A program made the translations under genes and the position numbers. The notes under the pieces are model-generated. The model was not told where the DNA came from. It made no database searches and saw nothing but the letters and a program-made list of their open reading frames with translations. Shown piece after piece: positions 13,446-23,275 of a stretch of 64,000 nucleotides of DNA (positions within the stretch are counted from its first letter, which is position 1; each line of letters starts with the position of its first letter). This DNA comes from an uncultured Acidovorax sp. (GTDB taxonomy: Bacteria; Pseudomonadota; Gammaproteobacteria; Burkholderiales; Burkholderiaceae_C): positions 35,106-99,105 of the forward strand of contig CAJYHL010000061.1 in the NCBI GenBank assembly GCA_913774625.1. Reading direction: 5' to 3'.

Positions 13446-13669
13446 AACCTTCGGGAGGTGGCGGGGCAAAGCCTCTGCGCATCTGCGGGGTTTCGGCCTG
13501 CAGCCCTTTGTGCAGAAACGCATGCAGCTATGATTAGCGTAGCAGCGTGTTGGGCGTAAGAGGCCGCCGGCACGGCGAAATAACCGCAGCCCATAACCAC
13601 CCAACGATTCGGTCGTTGCCCTGGAACCCGGCCAGCCCGTACATTTCACCCCCTTCACGCATCCGTACT

Positions 13670-13718
13670 GCGCCGCTGCCGGCAGGCCCTGGCTTGCCGG
13701 GCGGCGCTTTGTTTTTCC
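13670..13718 (+). terminator. Terminator-like hairpin in the metN leader
   Basis: A GC-rich stem of 7 + 6 bp (GCGCCGC with GCGGCGC, CCGGCA with TGCCGG, a two-base bulge and a 10-base loop) is followed by TTTGTTTTTCC. It ends only 14 bases before the metN start codon, inside a 287-base gene-free leader (13446-13732) that contains no other recognisable gene. Its place suggests control by premature termination, or the end of a short leader RNA. Confidence 0.6.
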
Positions 13719-13732
13719 TTTCGCGGGCATTC

Positions 13733-14800
13733 ATGATCGACTTACGGGGTATCACCCAGATTTACCAGGGCCCACAAGGCCCGGTGGAGGCGCTGCGCGG
13801 CATCGACCTGCACATCGAGCCGGGCGAGGTCTTCGGCATCATCGGCAAGAGCGGAGCGGGCAAGAGCTCGCTGGTGCGCGTCATCAACCTGCTCAACCGG
13901 CCCACCACGGGCCAGGTCATCGTGGCCGGGCACGACCTGGCGCAGATGGACGAGGCCCGGCTGCGCGAGGCGCGGCGGGGCATCGGCATGGTGTTCCAGC
14001 ACTTCAACCTGCTGTCGTCGCGCACGGTGTTCGGCAACGCCGCGCTGCCGCTGGAGCTGGCCGGCATGGACCGCGCCGCCATCCGAGAGCGCGTGAACCC
14101 GCTGCTGGAGCTGGTGGGCCTGTCGCATCTGGCGGACCGCTACCCCGCGCAGATCAGCGGCGGGCAGAAGCAGCGCGTGGGCATCGCCCGGGCGCTGGCC
14201 AGCCGGCCGCAGGTGCTGCTGTCGGACGAGGCCACCTCGGCGCTGGACCCGGAGACCACGCGCTCCATCCTCGCGCTGCTGCGGCAGGTCAACCGCGAGC
14301 TGGGCCTGACGGTGGTGCTCATCACCCACCAGATGCAGGTCATCAAGCAGGTGGCCGACCGCGTGGCCGTGATCGACGCCGGCCGCATCGTGGAGCAGGG
14401 CCCGGTGCTGGAGGTGTTCACCCGCCCGCAGCAGGCCATCACCAAAAGCCTGATCGACGAGATCGTGCCGCAGGAGCTGCCCGCCAGCGTGCTGGACCAT
14501 GTACGCCACCTAGCCTCGCAGCTGCCCGCGCACGAGACGGGCGAGCTGCTGCGCCTTTCGTATTCGGGCGAGCGCGCCTACCAGCCCATCCTGTCGCGCC
14601 TGATCCGCGAGCACGGGCTGGATCTCTCCATCCTGCACGGGCAGATCGACGAGATCCAGAGCCAGACCTTCGGCTCGCTGGCGGTCTATGTGAGCGGCGA
14701 GGGCGCACGCCTGGCGGCGGCGGTGGCGCAGCTGCGCGCCGAGGGCGTGCTGGTCGATGAAGTGAAGGTGGTGTCCGCCGGCGCGGGCATGGAGGGCTGA
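13733..14800 (+). CDS. metN: Methionine ABC transporter ATP-binding protein MetN
   Basis: A 355-residue ABC ATPase with Walker A (GKSGAGKSS, residues 38-46), signature [15 protein letters not shown], and Walker [12 protein letters not shown]. The distinctive C-terminal extension (about residues 265-350, with [16 protein letters not shown]) is the NIL domain, which in MetN binds methionine and inhibits transport from the cytoplasmic side. The length and NIL domain separate it from general polar amino-acid ATPases. MetI follows after 5 bases; the binding protein gene metQ follows after an intervening chemoreceptor gene. The start at 13733 aligns with the family N-terminus [11 protein letters not shown]. 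Confidence 0.95.
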
Positions 14801-14805
14801 GGGCG

Positions 14806-15471
14806 ATGTTCGAGAACTTTTCCGAAATGATGGTCGAGCTGTTCGTCACCTCGCTGTGGGAGACGCTCATCATGGTGGGCATCTCCGGCCTTGCGGGCGC
14901 GCTCATCGGCATCCCGCTGGGCGTCTTCCTGCGGCTGACCGACCGGGGCGGCGTGCTGGAGAACGGCGCCGTCAACAAGACCGTGGGCTGGATCGTGAAC
15001 GCCGTGCGCTCGACGCCGTTCATCATCCTGCTGGTGGCGATCATCCCGCTCACGCGCTTCATCACCGGCTCGTCCATCGGCACGGCCGCCGCCGTGGTGC
15101 CGCTCACCATCGCCGCCGCGCCCTTCGTCGCGCGGCTGGTGGAAGCCTCGCTGCGCGAGGTGGACAACGGCCTGATCGAGGCCGCCCAGGCCATGGGGGC
15201 GACCACCTGGCAGATCGTCTGGAAGGTGCTGCTGCCCGAGGCGCTGCCCGGCATCGTGGCGGGCCTGACCATCACCTTCGTCAGCCTCACGGGCTATTCG
15301 GCCATGGCCGGCGCCATCGGCGGCGGCGGCCTGGGCGACCTGGGCATCCGCTATGGCTACCAGCGCTTCCTGCCGGACATCATGCTGGCCGTGGTGGTGG
15401 TGCTGATCTTCTTCGTGCAGGCCGTGCAGAGCCTGGGCGACTGGGCGGTGCGGCGCCTGAGCCATCGCTGA
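14806..15471 (+). CDS. metI: Methionine ABC transporter permease MetI
   Basis: A 221-residue inner-membrane permease with about five transmembrane segments, starting MFENFSEMMVELF as MetI proteins do. The cytoplasmic coupling loop is visible as EAAQAMGATTWQIVWKVLLP (EAA motif). The C-terminal part (GLTITFVSLTGYSAMAGAIG) is highly typical of MetI. It starts 5 bases after metN and would form the MetN2-MetI2 importer of L- and D-methionine. Confidence 0.95.
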   Translation: MFENFSEMMVELFVTSLWETLIMVGISGLAGALIGIPLGVFLRLTDRGGVLENGAVNKTVGWIVNAVRSTPFIILLVAIIPLTRFITGSSIGTAAAVVPLTIAAAPFVARLVEASLREVDNGLIEAAQAMGATTWQIVWKVLLPEALPGIVAGLTITFVSLTGYSAMAGAIGGGGLGDLGIRYGYQRFLPDIMLAVVVVLIFFVQAVQSLGDWAVRRLSHR

Positions 15472-15570
15472 CTCTCTGCGGTCCATCGCCGCGATAGAAA
15501 TTTCCATGCGTCCGGGCCCCTAGCGCGCAAGTACCATTCCTGCAACATCTTTTTACATGGGACGAGTGGA

Positions 15571-17193
15571 ATGGGTTTTTCTCGCATGACCGTGGCCCGG
15601 CGCCTCATGGCCGCTTTCGGCCTGGTGGTGGCCTTGCTGGTGGTGGTGGTCGCCATAGCGCTGTTCAAGGTGCTGGCCATCGACCGGGCGCTCACCTCCA
15701 ACGAGGCGGAGCACGGACCCATCCAGCGCTACGCCATCAATTTCCGAGGCTCCGCGCACGACCGCTCCATCGCCGTGCGCGACGTGGTGCTGGCCGCCAC
15801 GCCCGAGGAGCGCGAACGCGAGGTGGGCTTGATCGCATCGCTGGCGGCGTTCTACGCGCAGTCCGCGGAGCCGATCGAGAAGATGCTGGCCCAGCCCGGG
15901 ACCGAGCCGCAGCTCAAGACGCTCTACGGCGACATCCGCGAACGCGAGGCCCAGGCCGTCGCCACCACGCAGCGCATCGTCGCGCTCGCCGGCAAGGACG
16001 ATGCCGCGGCACGCAGCGCCCTGTGGAGCGAGGCCAAGCCGCAGTACGTGCAGTGGCTGGCCGCCATCAACCGGCTGATCGATTTCGAGGAGGCGCGCAT
16101 CCGCGCGGCGAATGCGCAGGCGCTGTCCGAGGCCAGGAGCTTCCTGGCCGTCATGCTCACGGCGCTGGTGTTGGCCGTGGGCCTGAGCGCGCTGGTGGCC
16201 TGGGCCGTGTCGCGCAGCCTGCTGGGCCAGCTGGGGGCCGAGCCGCTCGCGCTGGCCGATGTGGCTGGCCGCGTGGCCTCGGGCGACCTGAGCCCCGTGA
16301 CGGGCGCCGATACGGCGCAACCCGGCAGCGTGCTGGCCTCGCTGGGTGGCATGCGGCACAACCTGGCCGCGGTGGTGGCGCAGGTCAGCGCCGCATCGCA
16401 GCAGGTCAGCCACGGGTCCATGGAGATCGCCCAGGGCAACGCCGGCCTGCTGCAGCGCACGGAAGAGCAGGCCCAGCACCTGCAGCACACCACCGCATCG
16501 ATGGAGCGCATGACCGTCTCGGTCAACGGCAACGCCCAGTCCGCCAGCCAAGCCACGCAGCTGGCGCAGTCGGCCAGCGCCGCTGCCGGCAAGGGCGGCA
16601 CGGTGGTGGGCGAAGTGGTGGCCACCATGGACGCGATCACCGCCAGTTCCGGCCAGATCGCCGACATCGTCGGCGTGATCGACTCCATCGCCTTCCAGAC
16701 CAATATCCTGGCGCTGAACGCCGCCGTGGAAGCGGCCCGCGCCGGCGAGCAGGGCAAGGGCTTCGCCGTCGTCGCCAGCGAGGTGCGCAGCCTGGCGCAG
16801 CGCAGCGCCCAGGCCGCCCGGGAGATCAAATCGCTCATCGACCAGAGCGTGGCCCGCGTGGGCGAGGGCGCCCGTCAGGTGGCGCAGGCCGGCTCGGCCA
16901 TGGCCGATATCGTCGAGCAGGTCGGGCGCGTGACCCAGCTCATCGCCCAGATCGACGGCGCCACCCGCGAACAGACCCACGGCATCGCCTCGGTGGGCGA
17001 GGCCGTCACCCAGCTGGATGAAGCGACCCAGCAGAATGCCGCCATGGTGGAGCAGAGCGCCGCGGCCGCCCAGGCGCTGCAGCAGCAAGCGGCGCATCTG
17101 GCTCAGGTGGTCAGCGTATTCAAGCTGGGGGCCGGTGGCGTCGGCGACAGCAGCGGTGGCGCTCACCGCCTGCCTGCGCCTGCGAGGTCGTGA
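15571..17193 (+). CDS. Methyl-accepting chemotaxis protein
   Basis: A 540-residue chemoreceptor: membrane helix 1 (about 9-32), periplasmic four-helix-type sensor (about 33-188), membrane helix 2 (about 190-212), HAMP region and a cytoplasmic signalling domain with the hairpin tip [20 protein letters not shown] and [20 protein letters not shown]. There is no C-terminal NWETF-type pentapeptide. It lies on the same strand between metI (99 bases upstream) and metQ (112 bases downstream), which is unusual. The ligand is unknown; the position suggests, but does not prove, a link with methionine or its binding protein. Confidence 0.93.
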
Positions 17194-17305
17194 ACCCATT
17201 CTGAGATCGTGAACACGTTCTGAGCACATGTCCATTCCGTCTTTGGCGGGCGCGCGGGGCGCGCTTACGATCGGCGGCTTTCCCTCCTTCCCAAGGTATT
17301 TCGAC

Positions 17306-18103
17306 GTGAACAAGCGTTCCCTTCTCCGCTCCTGCCTCGCCCTGTCCGCCGCCGCTGTCTTCATGCAGGGCGCACTGGCGCAGGACAAGCCCATCAAGGT
17401 CGGCGTCACCGCCGGTCCCCACGCCCAGATCATGGAGCACGTCAAGAAGATCGCCGAAAAGGACGGCCTGAAGATCCAGATCGTCGAATTCAGCGACTAC
17501 GTGCAGCCCAATGCCGCCCTGGCCGCCGGCGACCTGGACGCCAACAGCTACCAGCACAAGCCCTATCTGGACGCCCAGGTGAAGGACCGGGGCTACAAGC
17601 TGGTATCGGTGGGCTATACGGTCAACTACCCCATCGGCCTGTATTCCAAGAAGGTCAAGAAGCTCGAAGACCTGAAGGAAGGCGCGCGCTTCGGCATCCC
17701 GAACGATCCCACCAACGGCGGCCGCGTGCTGCTGGTGCTGCAGGACAAGGGCCTGATCAAGCTCAAGGACGGCGCGGGCCTGAAGGCCACGCCGCTGGAC
17801 GTGGTGAGCAACCCCAAGAAGCTGCGCTTCGTCGAGCTGGACGCCGCTCAGCTGGCACGTTCGCTGGATGACCTGGACGCCGCCGCCGTCAACACCAACT
17901 TCGCGCTGTCGGCCGGCCTGAACCCGGCCACGGACGCCATCGCGCGGGAAAGCGCCAAGAGCCCCTACGTCAACATCATCGCCGTGCGCGAGGCCGACAA
18001 GGACAAGCCCTGGGTCGCCAAGCTGCTCAAGGCCTACCAGTCCGACGACACGCGCCGCTTCATCCAGAGCGAATTCAAGGGGGCGGTGCTCGTGGGCTGG
18101 TGA
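17306..18103 (+). CDS. metQ: Methionine-binding periplasmic protein MetQ
   Basis: A 265-residue NlpA/MetQ-family binding protein. The mature sequence shows the family blocks IKVGVTAGPHAQIMEHVKKI, YVQPNAALAAGDLDANSYQH and FGIPNDPTNGGRVLLVLQ. GTG at 17306 is taken as the start: AAGG at 17293 gives a ribosome site and the result is a standard signal peptide ending GALA|QDKP. E. coli MetQ is a lipoprotein, but no good lipobox is seen here, so it is probably soluble in the periplasm. It delivers methionine to MetNI, from which it is separated by the chemoreceptor gene. Confidence 0.93.
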   Translation: MNKRSLLRSCLALSAAAVFMQGALAQDKPIKVGVTAGPHAQIMEHVKKIAEKDGLKIQIVEFSDYVQPNAALAAGDLDANSYQHKPYLDAQVKDRGYKLVSVGYTVNYPIGLYSKKVKKLEDLKEGARFGIPNDPTNGGRVLLVLQDKGLIKLKDGAGLKATPLDVVSNPKKLRFVELDAAQLARSLDDLDAAAVNTNFALSAGLNPATDAIARESAKSPYVNIIAVREADKDKPWVAKLLKAYQSDDTRRFIQSEFKGAVLVGW

Positions 18104-18195: not shown

Positions 18196-18385
18196 GGACG
18201 TCCGCTGCTGGCGGGTGCGTCTCATAGATGTTTGGGTGCTTAAGAACTGAAAATTGATTCGTTTGAGTTTTATGGGGCGCTCACTACAGTGAACTTCAGA
18301 CCTCCTGCACCACGCGACAGTGGCGCAGGGCGTCGGATTCCAAAAAAGCCGACAGGCCATCCATCGTTTTCAGGAAAGCCCCTCC
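18196..18385 (+). promoter_or_regulatory. Probable promoter region of the rhodanese-encapsulin cluster
   Basis: This gene-free 190 bases includes an AT-rich stretch (about 18225-18275) unusual for this genome and an inverted repeat TCACT-AC-AGTGA at 18281-18292. The stretch follows the metQ terminator and precedes the rhodanese gene, so transcription of the cluster probably starts here. No clear consensus -35/-10 pair or known regulator site was identified; the inverted repeat is a candidate operator only. Confidence 0.45.
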
Positions 18386-18865
18386 ATGACGTCCTCCGTA
18401 CTGCACGACATCGAACTGCCCGAAGCCCTGCAGGCCGCCCGCGAAGCGGCCAGCGCCGAAGGCCTTGCCTATCCCGGCGGCGTGACGCCACGCCAGGCCT
18501 GGGACCTGGTCTCGGCCGGCCAGGCGCTGCTGGTGGACGTGCGCTCGGGCGAGGAGCGCAAGTTCGTCGGCCATGTGCCCGGCAGCGTGCATGTGCCCTG
18601 GGCTACCGGCACGGCGCTCACCCGCAACCCCCGCTTCGTGCGCGAGCTCGAAGCCGCCATCCAGAAGGCCGGCGGCGAGCTGCCGGTGCTGCTGCTGTGC
18701 CGCAGCGGAAAGCGCTCGGTGCTGGCCGCCGAAGCGACGGCCAAGGCCGGCCTGGAGAACGTCTTCAACGTGCTCGAAGGCTTCGAGGGCGAGATCGACG
18801 GCGCCCAGCAGCGCGGCCATGCCGATGGCTGGCGCTTTCACGACCTGCCCTGGGTCCAGGACTGA
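18386..18865 (+). CDS. Single-domain rhodanese (sulfurtransferase) of the encapsulin cluster
   Basis: A 159-residue rhodanese-like protein. The active-site loop is CRSGKRS (C105-S111) after the strand PVLLLC, and the CH2A-type block LLVDVRSGEERKFVGHVPGS is intact. The catalytic cysteine carries persulfide sulfur in this family. AGGAAAG at 18371 is a good ribosome site for the ATG at 18386. Rhodaneses are reported partners of family 2A encapsulin loci together with a cysteine desulfurase and serine acetyltransferase, which is exactly the set found downstream here, so it probably moves sulfane sulfur into or out of the compartment. Confidence 0.9.
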   Translation: MTSSVLHDIELPEALQAAREAASAEGLAYPGGVTPRQAWDLVSAGQALLVDVRSGEERKFVGHVPGSVHVPWATGTALTRNPRFVRELEAAIQKAGGELPVLLLCRSGKRSVLAAEATAKAGLENVFNVLEGFEGEIDGAQQRGHADGWRFHDLPWVQD

Positions 18866-18971
18866 CGGGGCGAAGGCGCGGCGCCCGCTTCGCCGAGTTC
18901 CGCTCTGTCACATATCGCGCCTACGGTAGCGGCGCGAAGAGGATTCCATAACAACACCCCAGGGAGGCCGC

Positions 18972-19916
18972 GTGGCCCGTTTCGATATCGATGGCATCGT
19001 GCAGGCGCTGCACGCGGTGCGCCGCGACTGGCGCGAATCGCAGAACCGCTCGCAGGAGCCCGGCGGGCGCGAATTCCCCTCGCGCGATGCGCTGGCCCAG
19101 GTGCTGGAGCAGCTCAAGGGCGCGCTCTTTCCCATGCGCCTGGGGCCGCACGACCTGCGTCAGGAAAGCGAAGACCTGTACGTGGGCCACACGCTGGACC
19201 TTGCGCTGCACACCCTGCAGGCGCAGGCCCGGCTGGAGCTGCGCTACGGCGCCCGCCAGCAGGGCGCCATCGACGAGGAATGCATCGCCCGGCACTCGCA
19301 GCAGGCTATCCAGGAGTTCGCCACCTCGCTGCCCGCCATCCGCCGCCTGCTGGACAGCGACGTGCTGGCCGCCTACCAGGGCGACCCGGCCGCGCGCAGC
19401 GTGGACGAGGTGCTGCTGTGCTACCCCGGCGTGCTGGCCATGATCCACCACCGCATCGCACACCGGCTCTACGGGCTGGGCCTGCCGCTGCTGGCGCGCA
19501 TCGTGGCCGAGCTGGCGCACGGCCAGACCGGCATCGACATCCATCCGGGCGCGCGCATCGGCGCGGGCTTCTTCATCGACCACGGCACGGGCGTGGTGAT
19601 CGGCGAGACGGCGGTGATCGGCGAGCGCGTGCGCGTCTACCAGGCCGTCACGCTGGGCGCCAAGCGATTTCCTACCGACGCCGAAGGCCACCTGCAGAAA
19701 GGCCTGCCGCGGCATCCGGTGGTGGAGGACGACGTGGTCATCTATGCCGGCGCCACGGTGCTGGGGCGCGTCACCCTGGGCCGGGGTGCGGTGATCGGCG
19801 GCAACGTATGGATCACGCACGACGTGCCGCCAGGCGGCCATGTGTCGCAGGCGGTGTCGCGCGACAGCCGTGACTCCGGCTCTGCGGGCGATCTGGGCAA
19901 CGAGGCCGCTCGATGA
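18972..19916 (+). CDS. epsC: Serine O-acetyltransferase (EpsC type) of the encapsulin cluster
   Basis: A 314-residue serine acetyltransferase: an N-terminal helical domain (to about 180) and a left-handed beta-helix of hexapeptide repeats (GIDIHPGARIGAGFFIDHG, TGVVIGETAVIGERVRVYQ) ending near residue 290. It makes O-acetylserine, the carbon acceptor for cysteine synthesis. The sequence follows the longer EpsC-type pattern rather than enterobacterial CysE. GTG at 18972 is preceded by AGGGAGG, a strong ribosome site. The gene sits between the rhodanese and the regulator-encapsulin-desulfurase genes and overlaps the regulator by 4 bases. In this context it would supply cysteine for the compartment's desulfurase. 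Confidence 0.92.
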   Translation: MARFDIDGIVQALHAVRRDWRESQNRSQEPGGREFPSRDALAQVLEQLKGALFPMRLGPHDLRQESEDLYVGHTLDLALHTLQAQARLELRYGARQQGAIDEECIARHSQQAIQEFATSLPAIRRLLDSDVLAAYQGDPAARSVDEVLLCYPGVLAMIHHRIAHRLYGLGLPLLARIVAELAHGQTGIDIHPGARIGAGFFIDHGTGVVIGETAVIGERVRVYQAVTLGAKRFPTDAEGHLQKGLPRHPVVEDDVVIYAGATVLGRVTLGRGAVIGGNVWITHDVPPGGHVSQAVSRDSRDSGSAGDLGNEAAR

Positions 19917-20182
19917 CCACGCTGGTGCGGAATTTCGGCGTGGCCGTGCGCCAGTTGCGCGAGGCCAAGGGTTGGTCGCAGGAGCGGCTGGCCGAGCAGT
20001 CGGACCTCAACCGCTCGTACGTGGGCGAGATCGAGCGCGGCCGTGCCATTGCCTCGCTGCTCACCGTCGAAAAGCTGGCTGTGGCGTTGGGCGTGAAGCC
20101 TTCCGCATTGGTCACCCTCGGCGAAGCGATCTGCCAGGCCAACCTGATGCGCGGCGTCCAGTTGGCGGCTATAGCCTGTTGA
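19913..20182 (+). CDS. Small XRE-family regulator inside the encapsulin cluster
   Basis: An 89-residue protein that is almost only a helix-turn-helix domain: VRQLREAKGWSQERLAEQSD, NRSYVGEIERG and LLTVEKLAVALGVKPSALV (about residues 11-68). There is no ligand domain. It overlaps the serine acetyltransferase stop by 4 bases (ATGA), so it is co-translated with it, and lies 117 bases before the encapsulin gene. It may regulate the shell gene or its own operon; no target site is proven. Confidence 0.85.
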   Translation: MTTLVRNFGVAVRQLREAKGWSQERLAEQSDLNRSYVGEIERGRAIASLLTVEKLAVALGVKPSALVTLGEAICQANLMRGVQLAAIAC

Positions 20183-20299: not shown

Positions 20300-21232
20300 A
20301 TGACTGCAACCGTAGGCGGCATCACCGCACTGGGCGACAACGCCGCCCGGCAACTAGCCAATGCCACCAAGACCGCGCCTCAGCTGGAAACCATCAGCCC
20401 GCGCTGGCTGACCCATCTGCTGCAGTGGGTGCCGGTCGAAGCGGGCATCTACCGCGTCAACAAGGTCAAGAACCCCGAAGCGATCAAGGTGACCTGCACC
20501 GCCAAGGAAACCGAGAACCAGCTGCCGCGCACCTTCGTCGATTACGAGGAGAAGCCGCGCGAATACTTCCTGAACGCCGTCAGCACCGTGCTGGACGTGC
20601 ACACCCGCGTCTCCGATCTCTACAGCAGCCCGCACGACCAGATCAAGGAGCAGCTGCGCCTGACCATCGAGACCATCAAGGAGAACCAGGAAAGCGAGCT
20701 CATCAACAACCCCGACTACGGCCTGCTGGCCCAGGTGACCGACGCGCAGCGCATCTTCCCGCTGACCGGCGCGCCCACGCCCGACGACCTGGACGAGCTG
20801 CTGACCAAGGTCTGGAAGGAGCCGGCCTTCTTCCTGGCGCACCCGCTGGCCATCGCCGCCTTCGGCCGCGAAGCGACGCGCCGTGGCACGCCCCCGCCCA
20901 CGGTGAGCCTGTTCGGCTCGCAGTTCATCACCTGGCGCGGCATTCCGCTGATCCCGTCCGACAAGGTGCCGGTGGCCGACGGCAAGAGCAAGATCCTGCT
21001 GCTGCGCGTGGGCGACAAGCGCCAGGGCGTGGTGGGCCTATTCCAGCCCGGCCTCTCGGGTGAGCAGGGCCCAGGCCTGTCGGTGCGCTTCATGGGCATC
21101 AACAACCATGCCATCGCCTCGTACCTGATCTCGCAGTACTGCTCGCTGGCCGTGCTCACCTCCGATGCGCTGGCCGTGCTGGACGACGTCGAGGTGAACA
21201 AGTACCACGACTATCCGGACACCTACAAATAA
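20300..21232 (+). CDS. srpI: Family 2A encapsulin shell protein (SrpI/MMPI-like)
   Basis: A 310-residue protein resembling SrpI of cyanobacteria and the mycobacterial major membrane protein I, which are HK97-fold family 2A encapsulins that assemble into about 25-nm shells. Recognisable blocks are SPRWLTHLLQWVPVEAGIYRVN near the start (residues about 33-56), DYEEKPREYFLNAVSTVLDVH, and the C-terminal GINNHAIASYLISQYCSLAV. There is no inserted cyclic-nucleotide domain, which excludes family 2B. It is followed after 15 bases by a cysteine desulfurase with a long disordered N-terminus, the established cargo type, and preceded by rhodanese and serine acetyltransferase genes. Published family members store elemental sulfur; that this one does so is inferred. 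Confidence 0.93.
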   Translation: MTATVGGITALGDNAARQLANATKTAPQLETISPRWLTHLLQWVPVEAGIYRVNKVKNPEAIKVTCTAKETENQLPRTFVDYEEKPREYFLNAVSTVLDVHTRVSDLYSSPHDQIKEQLRLTIETIKENQESELINNPDYGLLAQVTDAQRIFPLTGAPTPDDLDELLTKVWKEPAFFLAHPLAIAAFGREATRRGTPPPTVSLFGSQFITWRGIPLIPSDKVPVADGKSKILLLRVGDKRQGVVGLFQPGLSGEQGPGLSVRFMGINNHAIASYLISQYCSLAVLTSDALAVLDDVEVNKYHDYPDTYK

Positions 21233-21247
21233 AGAAAAGCGACGGCT

Positions 21248-23275
21248 ATGACCCGAACTTTTCATCCCCCCGGCGCTGATGCGCCCGGGGCTCCCATCGA
21301 CCCGGCGGTGATCGCGCGCATGGCCAATGCCCTGTTCCAGGCGCTGCCCGGCGAGGCGGGCGGCCCGGTGGGCGGCTTTCCGGTCACCCCGCCGGCAGCG
21401 CCCGCATCGCTGCAGGCGCCCGGCTACCTGCCGCCCGGCGTTCAGGCGCCGGCCAACATCGCGCCGCCGGGCTCGCCGCTGGCGAGTCCTGCCGGCTTCG
21501 GCCCCGGCGTGCCCGGCACGCCCATCCCGCAAGGGCAGATTCCCGGCAGCAACCTGCTGCCGGCATCGCCCACGCCGGTGCTGTCGCTGGGCCACCGCGC
21601 CCCTGCGCTGCTGCCCCATGCCGTGGCCGGCAACGGCGTGCCCGACACGGTGCTGAGCACGCTGCCGGCCTACGAGCCGCGCCTGGGCAGCGGCGTGCAG
21701 GGCGTGCCCGAGGCAGCCGGCGCCGTATCGGCACCGCCGGTGGCGTCGCCCGCGCCGGCATCGCCCTACTACTTCGTCGGCGAGCGGCTGCAGCCGCCGG
21801 CGGCCGGCGGCGCTCCGTACGCTGCGGCGGCCGATCCGCTGGACGTGTTGGCGCGCCAGCCCTTCGCGCCGCCGCAGGTGCCCAGCCTGGGCGCTCCGGC
21901 CGGCGTGCCCACGGGGGCCGCTGCCGCAGCGCCTGCGGCCGACCCGCGCTTTTACTTCGTCGATGCGGTGGTGCTGCCCAGCGGCTACGTCACCCCGGCC
22001 AAGCCGGCGCCGCACGGCAGCGTGCCGCTGGCAGGGCAGGGACGGCACCCGCCCTTCGACGTGCATGCCGTGCGGCGCGACTTCCCCATCCTTTCGGAGC
22101 GGGTGAACGGCCGGCAGCTGGTGTGGTTCGACAACGCCGCCACCACCCACAAGCCGAAAGCGGTGATCGACCGCATCAGCCACTTCTACGAGCACGAGAA
22201 CTCCAACATCCACCGGGCCGCGCATGAACTCGCCGCACGCGCGACGGACGCCTACGAAGGCGCCCGCCAGCGCGTGAAGGGCTTCATCAACGCGCCCGAC
22301 GTGAACGAGGTGATCTTCGTGCGCGGCACCACCGAGGCCATCAACCTGGTGGCCAAGAGCTGGGGCGGCCAGCATGTGGGCGAGGGCGACGAGATCATCG
22401 TGAGCCACCTGGAGCACCACGCCAACATCGTGCCCTGGCAGCAGCTGGCGGCGGCCAAGGGCGCGAAGCTGCGCGTGATTCCGGTGGACGATTCGGGCCA
22501 GGTGCTGCTGGATGAATACCAGAAGCTGCTGAACGACCGCACCAAGATCGTCGCCGTCACCCAGGTCTCCAACGCGCTGGGCACCGTGGTGCCCGTGAAG
22601 GAGATCGTGGCGCTGGCCAAGCGCGCGGGCGCCAAGGCGCTGGTCGATGGCGCGCAGTCGGTGTCGCACATGCGGGTGGACGTGCAGGACCTGGGGGCCG
22701 ACTTCTTCGTGTTCTCGGGCCACAAGGTGTTCGGGCCGACCGGCATCGGCGTGGTCTGGGGCAGGCGCGAGGTACTCGAAGACATGCCGCCCTGGCAGGG
22801 CGGCGGCAACATGATCGCCGACGTGACCTTCGAGAAGACCGTGTTCCAGCCCATCCCGAACAAGTTCGAGGCCGGCACCGGCAACATCGCGGACGCGGTG
22901 GGCCTGGGCGCGGCGATCGACTACGTGAACCGGGTGGGCATCGAGAACATCGCCCGCTACGAGCACGAGCTGCTGGCCTACGGCATGCAGCAGCTGCGCA
23001 CCATCCCGGGCGTGCGGCTGATCGGCACGGCCGATGACAAGGCCAGCGTGATGTCCTTCGTGCTGGCCGGCTACTCGACCGAAGAGGTGGGCAAGGCGCT
23101 CAACGAAGAAGGCATCGCCGTGCGCACGGGCCACCACTGCGCGCAGCCCATCCTGCGCCGCTTCGGCGTGGAGACCACGGTGCGGCCGTCGCTGGCGTTC
23201 TACAACACCTTCGACGAGATCGACCGGCTGGTGGACGTGGTGCGTGCGCTGGCCGCGCGCCGGCCGGCGGGCTGA
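21248..23275 (+). CDS. Cysteine desulfurase (SufS-like) with disordered encapsulin-targeting extension
   Basis: A 675-residue protein in two parts. Residues 1-268 are a Pro/Ala/Gly-rich, low-complexity, presumably disordered region; residues 269-675 are a group II (SufS-like) desulfurase with PLP-lysine K493 in FSGHKVFGPTG and the persulfide-forming C631 in RTGHHCAQP. The enzyme releases sulfur from cysteine. In studied family 2A encapsulins the equivalent extension loads the desulfurase into the shell. Here it carries two similar aromatic segments, PYYFVGERLQPP (173-184) and RFYFVDAVVLPSG (234-246), candidate shell-binding motifs. The gene is last in the cluster and ends 20 bases before a strong terminator. 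Confidence 0.95.
   Translation: MTRTFHPPGADAPGAPIDPAVIARMANALFQALPGEAGGPVGGFPVTPPAAPASLQAPGYLPPGVQAPANIAPPGSPLASPAGFGPGVPGTPIPQGQIPGSNLLPASPTPVLSLGHRAPALLPHAVAGNGVPDTVLSTLPAYEPRLGSGVQGVPEAAGAVSAPPVASPAPASPYYFVGERLQPPAAGGAPYAAAADPLDVLARQPFAPPQVPSLGAPAGVPTGAAAAAPAADPRFYFVDAVVLPSGYVTPAKPAPHGSVPLAGQGRHPPFDVHAVRRDFPILSERVNGRQLVWFDNAATTHKPKAVIDRISHFYEHENSNIHRAAHELAARATDAYEGARQRVKGFINAPDVNEVIFVRGTTEAINLVAKSWGGQHVGEGDEIIVSHLEHHANIVPWQQLAAAKGAKLRVIPVDDSGQVLLDEYQKLLNDRTKIVAVTQVSNALGTVVPVKEIVALAKRAGAKALVDGAQSVSHMRVDVQDLGADFFVFSGHKVFGPTGIGVVWGRREVLEDMPPWQGGGNMIADVTFEKTVFQPIPNKFEAGTGNIADAVGLGAAIDYVNRVGIENIARYEHELLAYGMQQLRTIPGVRLIGTADDKASVMSFVLAGYSTEEVGKALNEEGIAVRTGHHCAQPILRRFGVETTVRPSLAFYNTFDEIDRLVDVVRALAARRPAG

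Follow-up and report, generated by a model that had tools for sequence, protein, structure and literature searches.

Positions 21248–23275 of the window (the whole stretch of 64,000 nucleotides analysed here) encode CyD, the cysteine desulfurase cargo of a family 2A encapsulin. A short aromatic (YF) motif occurs twice in its long disordered N-terminal extension, and this pairing is genuine and conserved within a system already known. The extension also contains a predicted helix, likelier than the YF cores to be the primary docking element, and a 94-residue Pro/Gly block, absent from an earlier note on this DNA, which is the largest constrained part of the extension. The locus comprises the following features.

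18320..20182, + strand: upstream genes for a rhodanese, an EpsC-type serine acetyltransferase and an XRE regulator (Pfam and NCBIfam matches)
20300..21232, + strand: family 2A encapsulin shell protein, 310 aa (NF041162, 529.8 bits versus a cut-off of 380; solved relatives 8t6r and 6x8m, the latter being SrpI)
21248..23275, + strand: encapsulin-associated cysteine desulfurase (CyD), 675 aa (NF041166, 931.6 bits versus a cut-off of 800, residues 13–668; Aminotran_5, residues 292–661)
21248..22051, + strand: disordered N-terminal extension, residues 1–268 (53% P, A and G; AlphaFold2 pLDDT mostly 34–47)
22052..23272, + strand: SufS-like catalytic domain, residues 269–675 (TIGR01979, 566.2 bits versus a cut-off of 475.1; pLDDT mostly 80–98)

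The assignment to family 2A rests on the curated score, the adjoining shell gene, an extension with motifs of the LARLANEFFS and AASPYYFLDG types (IARMANALFQ at residues 22–31 and ASPYYFVGE at residues 171–179, respectively) and the SufS-like domain, which also scores 500 bits against PF00266. The 310-residue shell lacks the inserted cNMP-binding-like domain of family 2B and is matched in Pfam by PF19307 only. CyD is the sole protein of its genome above the NF041166 cut-off, and a whole-genome comparison found no protein similar to its extension elsewhere in that genome. The shell stop codon precedes the CyD start by 15 bases; the two genes share a reading frame, the gap consisting of one TAA and five codons (window 20300–23275), and this shared frame, also found in 45 related loci, probably reflects inherited spacing. 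The rhodanese, serine acetyltransferase and XRE gene types also adjoin the pair in a Variovorax plasmid relative (L120). Just upstream of the encapsulin genes are metN, metI and metQ, encoding a methionine transporter; the last two of these flank a gene for a chemotaxis receptor (13547–18103).

Within the extension, five elements could be delimited.

21299..21352, + strand: helix motif of the published LARLANEFFS type, residues 18–35 (DPAVIARMANALFQALPG); hmm match in 94 of 103 extensions; predicted helix 19–30; pN/pS 0.31
21434..21715, + strand: conserved gap-free Pro/Gly block, residues 63–156; no gaps in the close set; pN/pS 0.23 (63–110) and 0.30 (111–156)
21761..21799, + strand: YF motif copy 1, residues 172–184 (SPYYFVGERLQPP), core 174–177; Y175 83% and F176 87% identical; pN/pS 0.51
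21836..21871, + strand: weak third element, residues 197–208 (PLDVLARQPFAP); low-confidence short helix 197–202; pN/pS 0.61
21941..22006, + strand: YF motif copy 2 with an extended conserved tail, residues 232–253 (DPRFYFVDAVVLPSGYVTPAKP); Y236 and F237 94% identical over 69 sequences; pN/pS 0.21

The earlier note had described the extension as rich in Pro, Ala and Gly, which is borne out by its composition (20.9% P, 19.8% A and 12.3% G), and had singled out two aromatic segments, which the translation of 21248–23275 (+) places exactly where they had been located, at S172–P184 and P233–S245 (PRFYFVDAVVLPS), with cores Y174–V177 and F235–V238 indeed 61 residues apart. The helical segment near the N-terminus, given there as residues 17–34, is present one residue further on, at 18–35. 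Its description as the only other ordered-looking part did not hold, given the gap-free conserved Pro/Gly block and the weak short helix predicted at 197–202.

With more than half of the extension made up of three residue types, the motifs might be chance similarities in low-complexity sequence, but this reading has a negligible probability. When residues 1–268 were shuffled 200,000 times, one match to [YFW][YFW]F[VLI] arose in 0.36% of the shuffles and two in none, and the motifs are conserved across phyla and under purifying selection; a chance origin was rejected on the grounds of shuffling and conservation. The earlier note had held that absence of conservation among homologues would refute a docking role of the segments; both are kept far above chance. 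Among 103 distinct homologous extensions, drawn from genome contigs, whole genomes and plasmids, the relaxed core YF[LVIATM] was seen 174 times against 5.6 expected by shuffling, and 99 of them have at least one such core. Two or more cores occur in 74 of the 103, one in 25 and none in four, a two-copy fraction that is no family-wide rate because the sample leans to the Burkholderiales (82 of 103 by enzyme identity), with Actinobacteria and Bacteroidota nearly absent. The Burkholderiales-like set has two cores in 68 cases, one in 13 and none in one, while the 21 more distant extensions have two in six, one in 12 and none in three; two-copy proteins include those of Acinetobacter baumannii, Methylosinus, Burkholderia and Paraburkholderia, outside the relatives of the window.

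The two copies lie 29–127 residues apart (median 64), and the commonest distance from the last copy to the catalytic domain is 33 residues (46 of 99 extensions). In two-copy proteins, copy 1 follows the consensus A-S-P-[FY]-Y-F-L-x-[DE] and copy 2 the consensus P-[QK]-[FY]-Y-F-V-D-A-V-x-L-P-S-G-Y; judged from these sequences, the copies are not interchangeable. The term 'duplicated' used in the earlier note is therefore apt for the core and not for a duplication event, since the copies keep different flanks across species. A recent duplication of the DNA was considered and found to be unsupported for the same reason. By the relaxed pattern, Delftia, Diaphorobacter and Variovorax PBL-E5 lack copy 1, and Herbaspirillum SJZ106 as well as several Duganella-type species lack copy 2; some 'single' proteins keep a degenerate copy 1, such as FYFGG in L049 and FYWQG in L027. 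The enzyme-domain tree, which came from a quick search with no bootstrap, requires 18 or more changes in copy number, at least eight of them forced by well supported branches. Natural loss of either copy is hence common, which indicates that the two are not both required. The plasmid-borne desulfurase of Aliarcobacter cibarius (L117:4911-6419) has an extension of ∼95 residues with neither a helix profile match nor a YF core, and the shell pair is kept; cargo loading may differ in this organism.

The Pro/Gly block profile matches 82 of the 103 extensions, namely those of the Burkholderiales (L124 weakly), with no match in the cyanobacterial, alphaproteobacterial or Acinetobacter sequences among them. 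In place of residues 197–208, Acinetobacter, Burkholderia and relatives have an FGLPxxxxLxxLL-like sequence between the YF copies, and several Comamonadaceae have LDxLAxxPFA there; either form was found by pattern in 17 of the 103 extensions, and such an inter-copy element is put forward as a lead, not as a finding. Its counterpart in the window is weakly constrained in near relatives, as judged by the pN/pS of 0.61. The pN/pS values were computed over all pairs of close relatives only, so that the pairs are non-independent; by this measure copy 2 is constrained like the Pro/Gly block and copy 1 less so, the linkers are freer (0.61–0.81, with many gaps) and the catalytic domain stands at 0.125 (residues 269–400). 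Several other aromatic residues of the extension, F5, F44, Y60 and Y191 among them, show no conservation.

In the AlphaFold2 model of CyD alone, most of the extension has a pLDDT below 50, with the helix at residues 19–30 reaching 54–63, a weak helix at 197–202 and an isolated strand pair at 242 and 248; residues 230–250 remain at ∼40–43 beside a well predicted enzyme. A shell–CyD fusion was also modelled, in which the single TAA was read through as Q in the same frame and rows from plasmid records were left out of the alignment; confidence did not rise at either YF copy (∼27–43) in this model, whose shell half was itself badly predicted (pLDDT ∼24–41, residues 1–130). The N-terminal arm of the shell (ARQLANATK, 20341–20373) resembles the cargo helix (LARLANEFF type, 21299–21352), the aligner having matched both unprompted; this likeness may be due to chance.

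Motifs of both the LARLANEFFS and AASPYYFLDG types have already been reported in this extension (Nichols et al., 2021; PMC8049743); a search of its text, figure supplements aside, turned up no reference to a second YF copy. As described in its text, the extension of the Synechococcus elongatus enzyme is both essential and sufficient for loading, none being observed without it, and fragment 1–225 is the best at loading fused GFP, fragment 1–100 works less well and fragment 155–183 fails (PMC8049743). The S. elongatus CyD (L112:5132-7012) has helix motifs at 25 and 88 and its sole YF core (FYFID) at 178, so that the loading fragment 1–100 contains helices only and the failing fragment 155–183 the YF motif only. 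Set against these published fragments, the YF motif is not a sufficient docking signal, and the helix, which the earlier note had put second, would be the better primary docking candidate. The proposal made there that the aromatic segments dock to the shell thus retains the support of their conservation and of the role of the extension in loading in S. elongatus, and loses the idea that a YF motif suffices; the helix is a plausible shell-docking element and the YF cores are candidates. The same text places cargo density, too weak in the cryo-EM map to be modelled, at the threefold axis near Phe262 and Tyr273 of SrpI (PMC8049743). These residues correspond to Phe264 and Tyr275 of the window shell, and the equivalent positions hold Phe in 98 and Tyr in 99 of 103 shells.

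The reading favoured here, which we consider probable, is that the extension is a loading tether with the helix as the main shell binder and the YF cores in a secondary role. The extension would be a disordered arm with several short conserved elements that tethers CyD for loading; the amphipathic helix near its start would most likely be the main binder of the inner face of the shell, and the two YF cores might add avidity or position the enzyme close to the threefold axis, being partly redundant, as the evolutionary loss of either copy suggests. The Pro/Gly block may determine reach and spacing, or may have its own binding partner. The present analysis provides the presence, position, conservation and copy-number turnover of the motifs; the YF–shell contact and the division of labour between elements are inferred. 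The agreement between the motif positions in S. elongatus and the fragments reported to load in the text of PMC8049743 counts for the tether, as do the freer linkers between a constrained helix, block and copy 2. Family membership, gene order, the published cargo density beside almost invariant shell residues, the excess of YF cores over expectation and their copy-number turnover speak for it as well. On the other hand, loading was measured on a cyanobacterial protein that lacks the Pro/Gly block and has two helices with a single YF motif, which counts against it.

Copy 2 is more conserved than copy 1 and sits at a more fixed distance from the catalytic domain, which would also be compatible with a function on the enzyme. 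Copy 2 and its tail (FYFVDAVVLPSGYVTPAKP) might dock on the desulfurase, either on their own subunit or on the partner subunit of the dimer, leaving only copy 1 and the helix to face the shell. Consistent with this are the strongest constraint in the extension, a spacing of ∼33–36 residues to the catalytic domain in the majority of homologues, a long extended conservation unlike that of copy 1 and the isolated strand pair in the AlphaFold2 model. We nevertheless regard such docking as unlikely, since model confidence is low over residues 230–250, copy 2 has been lost in Herbaspirillum L009 and several Duganella-type species, and removal of the whole extension left catalysis by the S. elongatus enzyme unchanged, according to the text of PMC8049743. 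Somewhat less likely still, the YF cores could mediate contacts between extensions or cargo molecules, as aromatic stickers concentrating the enzyme in the shell, instead of binding the shell itself. Aromatic cores of variable number and spacing in a disordered chain rich in Pro, Gly and Ala would suit such a role, as would the failure of the isolated YF fragment to load, but the conservation of position-specific flanks around the aromatic core points to specific partners, and several other aromatic residues of the extension are not conserved. Beyond the tether itself, it is conceivable, if rather less than an even prospect, that a modular, multivalent arm loads family 2A desulfurases in general, with lineages differing in their number of helices and YF cores, and that the Burkholderiales added a constrained disordered block of 94 residues with a separate partner.

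How family 2 encapsulins recognize their cargo is unsettled in the reports consulted, one of which states that no specific targeting peptide had been identified for the desulfurase systems (PMC8346489). The motif type has been known since 2021, the usual presence of two copies and the adjoining long conserved stretch being the under-described detail. Natural variants with either YF copy alone, with two helices and one YF core, or with and without the Pro/Gly block could be used to assign roles to the elements, and the motif pattern suggests short candidate tags for loading foreign proteins.

The system in the window resembles SrpI/CyD of S. elongatus PCC 7942, as described in the text of PMC8049743, in the pairing of shell and desulfurase and in a disordered extension with helix and YF motifs, and the serine acetyltransferase and rhodanese genes adjoin the shell/CyD pair in both; it differs in having one helix motif, two YF cores and the Pro/Gly block, where the cyanobacterial protein has two helix motifs, one YF core and no block. 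The family 2A desulfurase of A. baumannii (L113) likewise combines a helix (ARLANEFF) with two YF cores (SPYYFLND and SAFYFLD), but has no match to the Pro/Gly block and carries FQLPHGDQLKSLL between the copies. The desulfurase cargos of family 2B-like encapsulins (L089–L092) share a disordered-looking extension and a YF core (YYFLADR or YYFLTG) ∼40 residues before the enzyme, although they have one core only and the match of their shells to the 2A profile is split in two, as expected for an inserted domain. In the targeting peptides of family 1 encapsulins, too, short cargo motifs direct loading (PMC8346489), but there a single short C-terminal tag takes the place of the long arm with several motifs found in the window.
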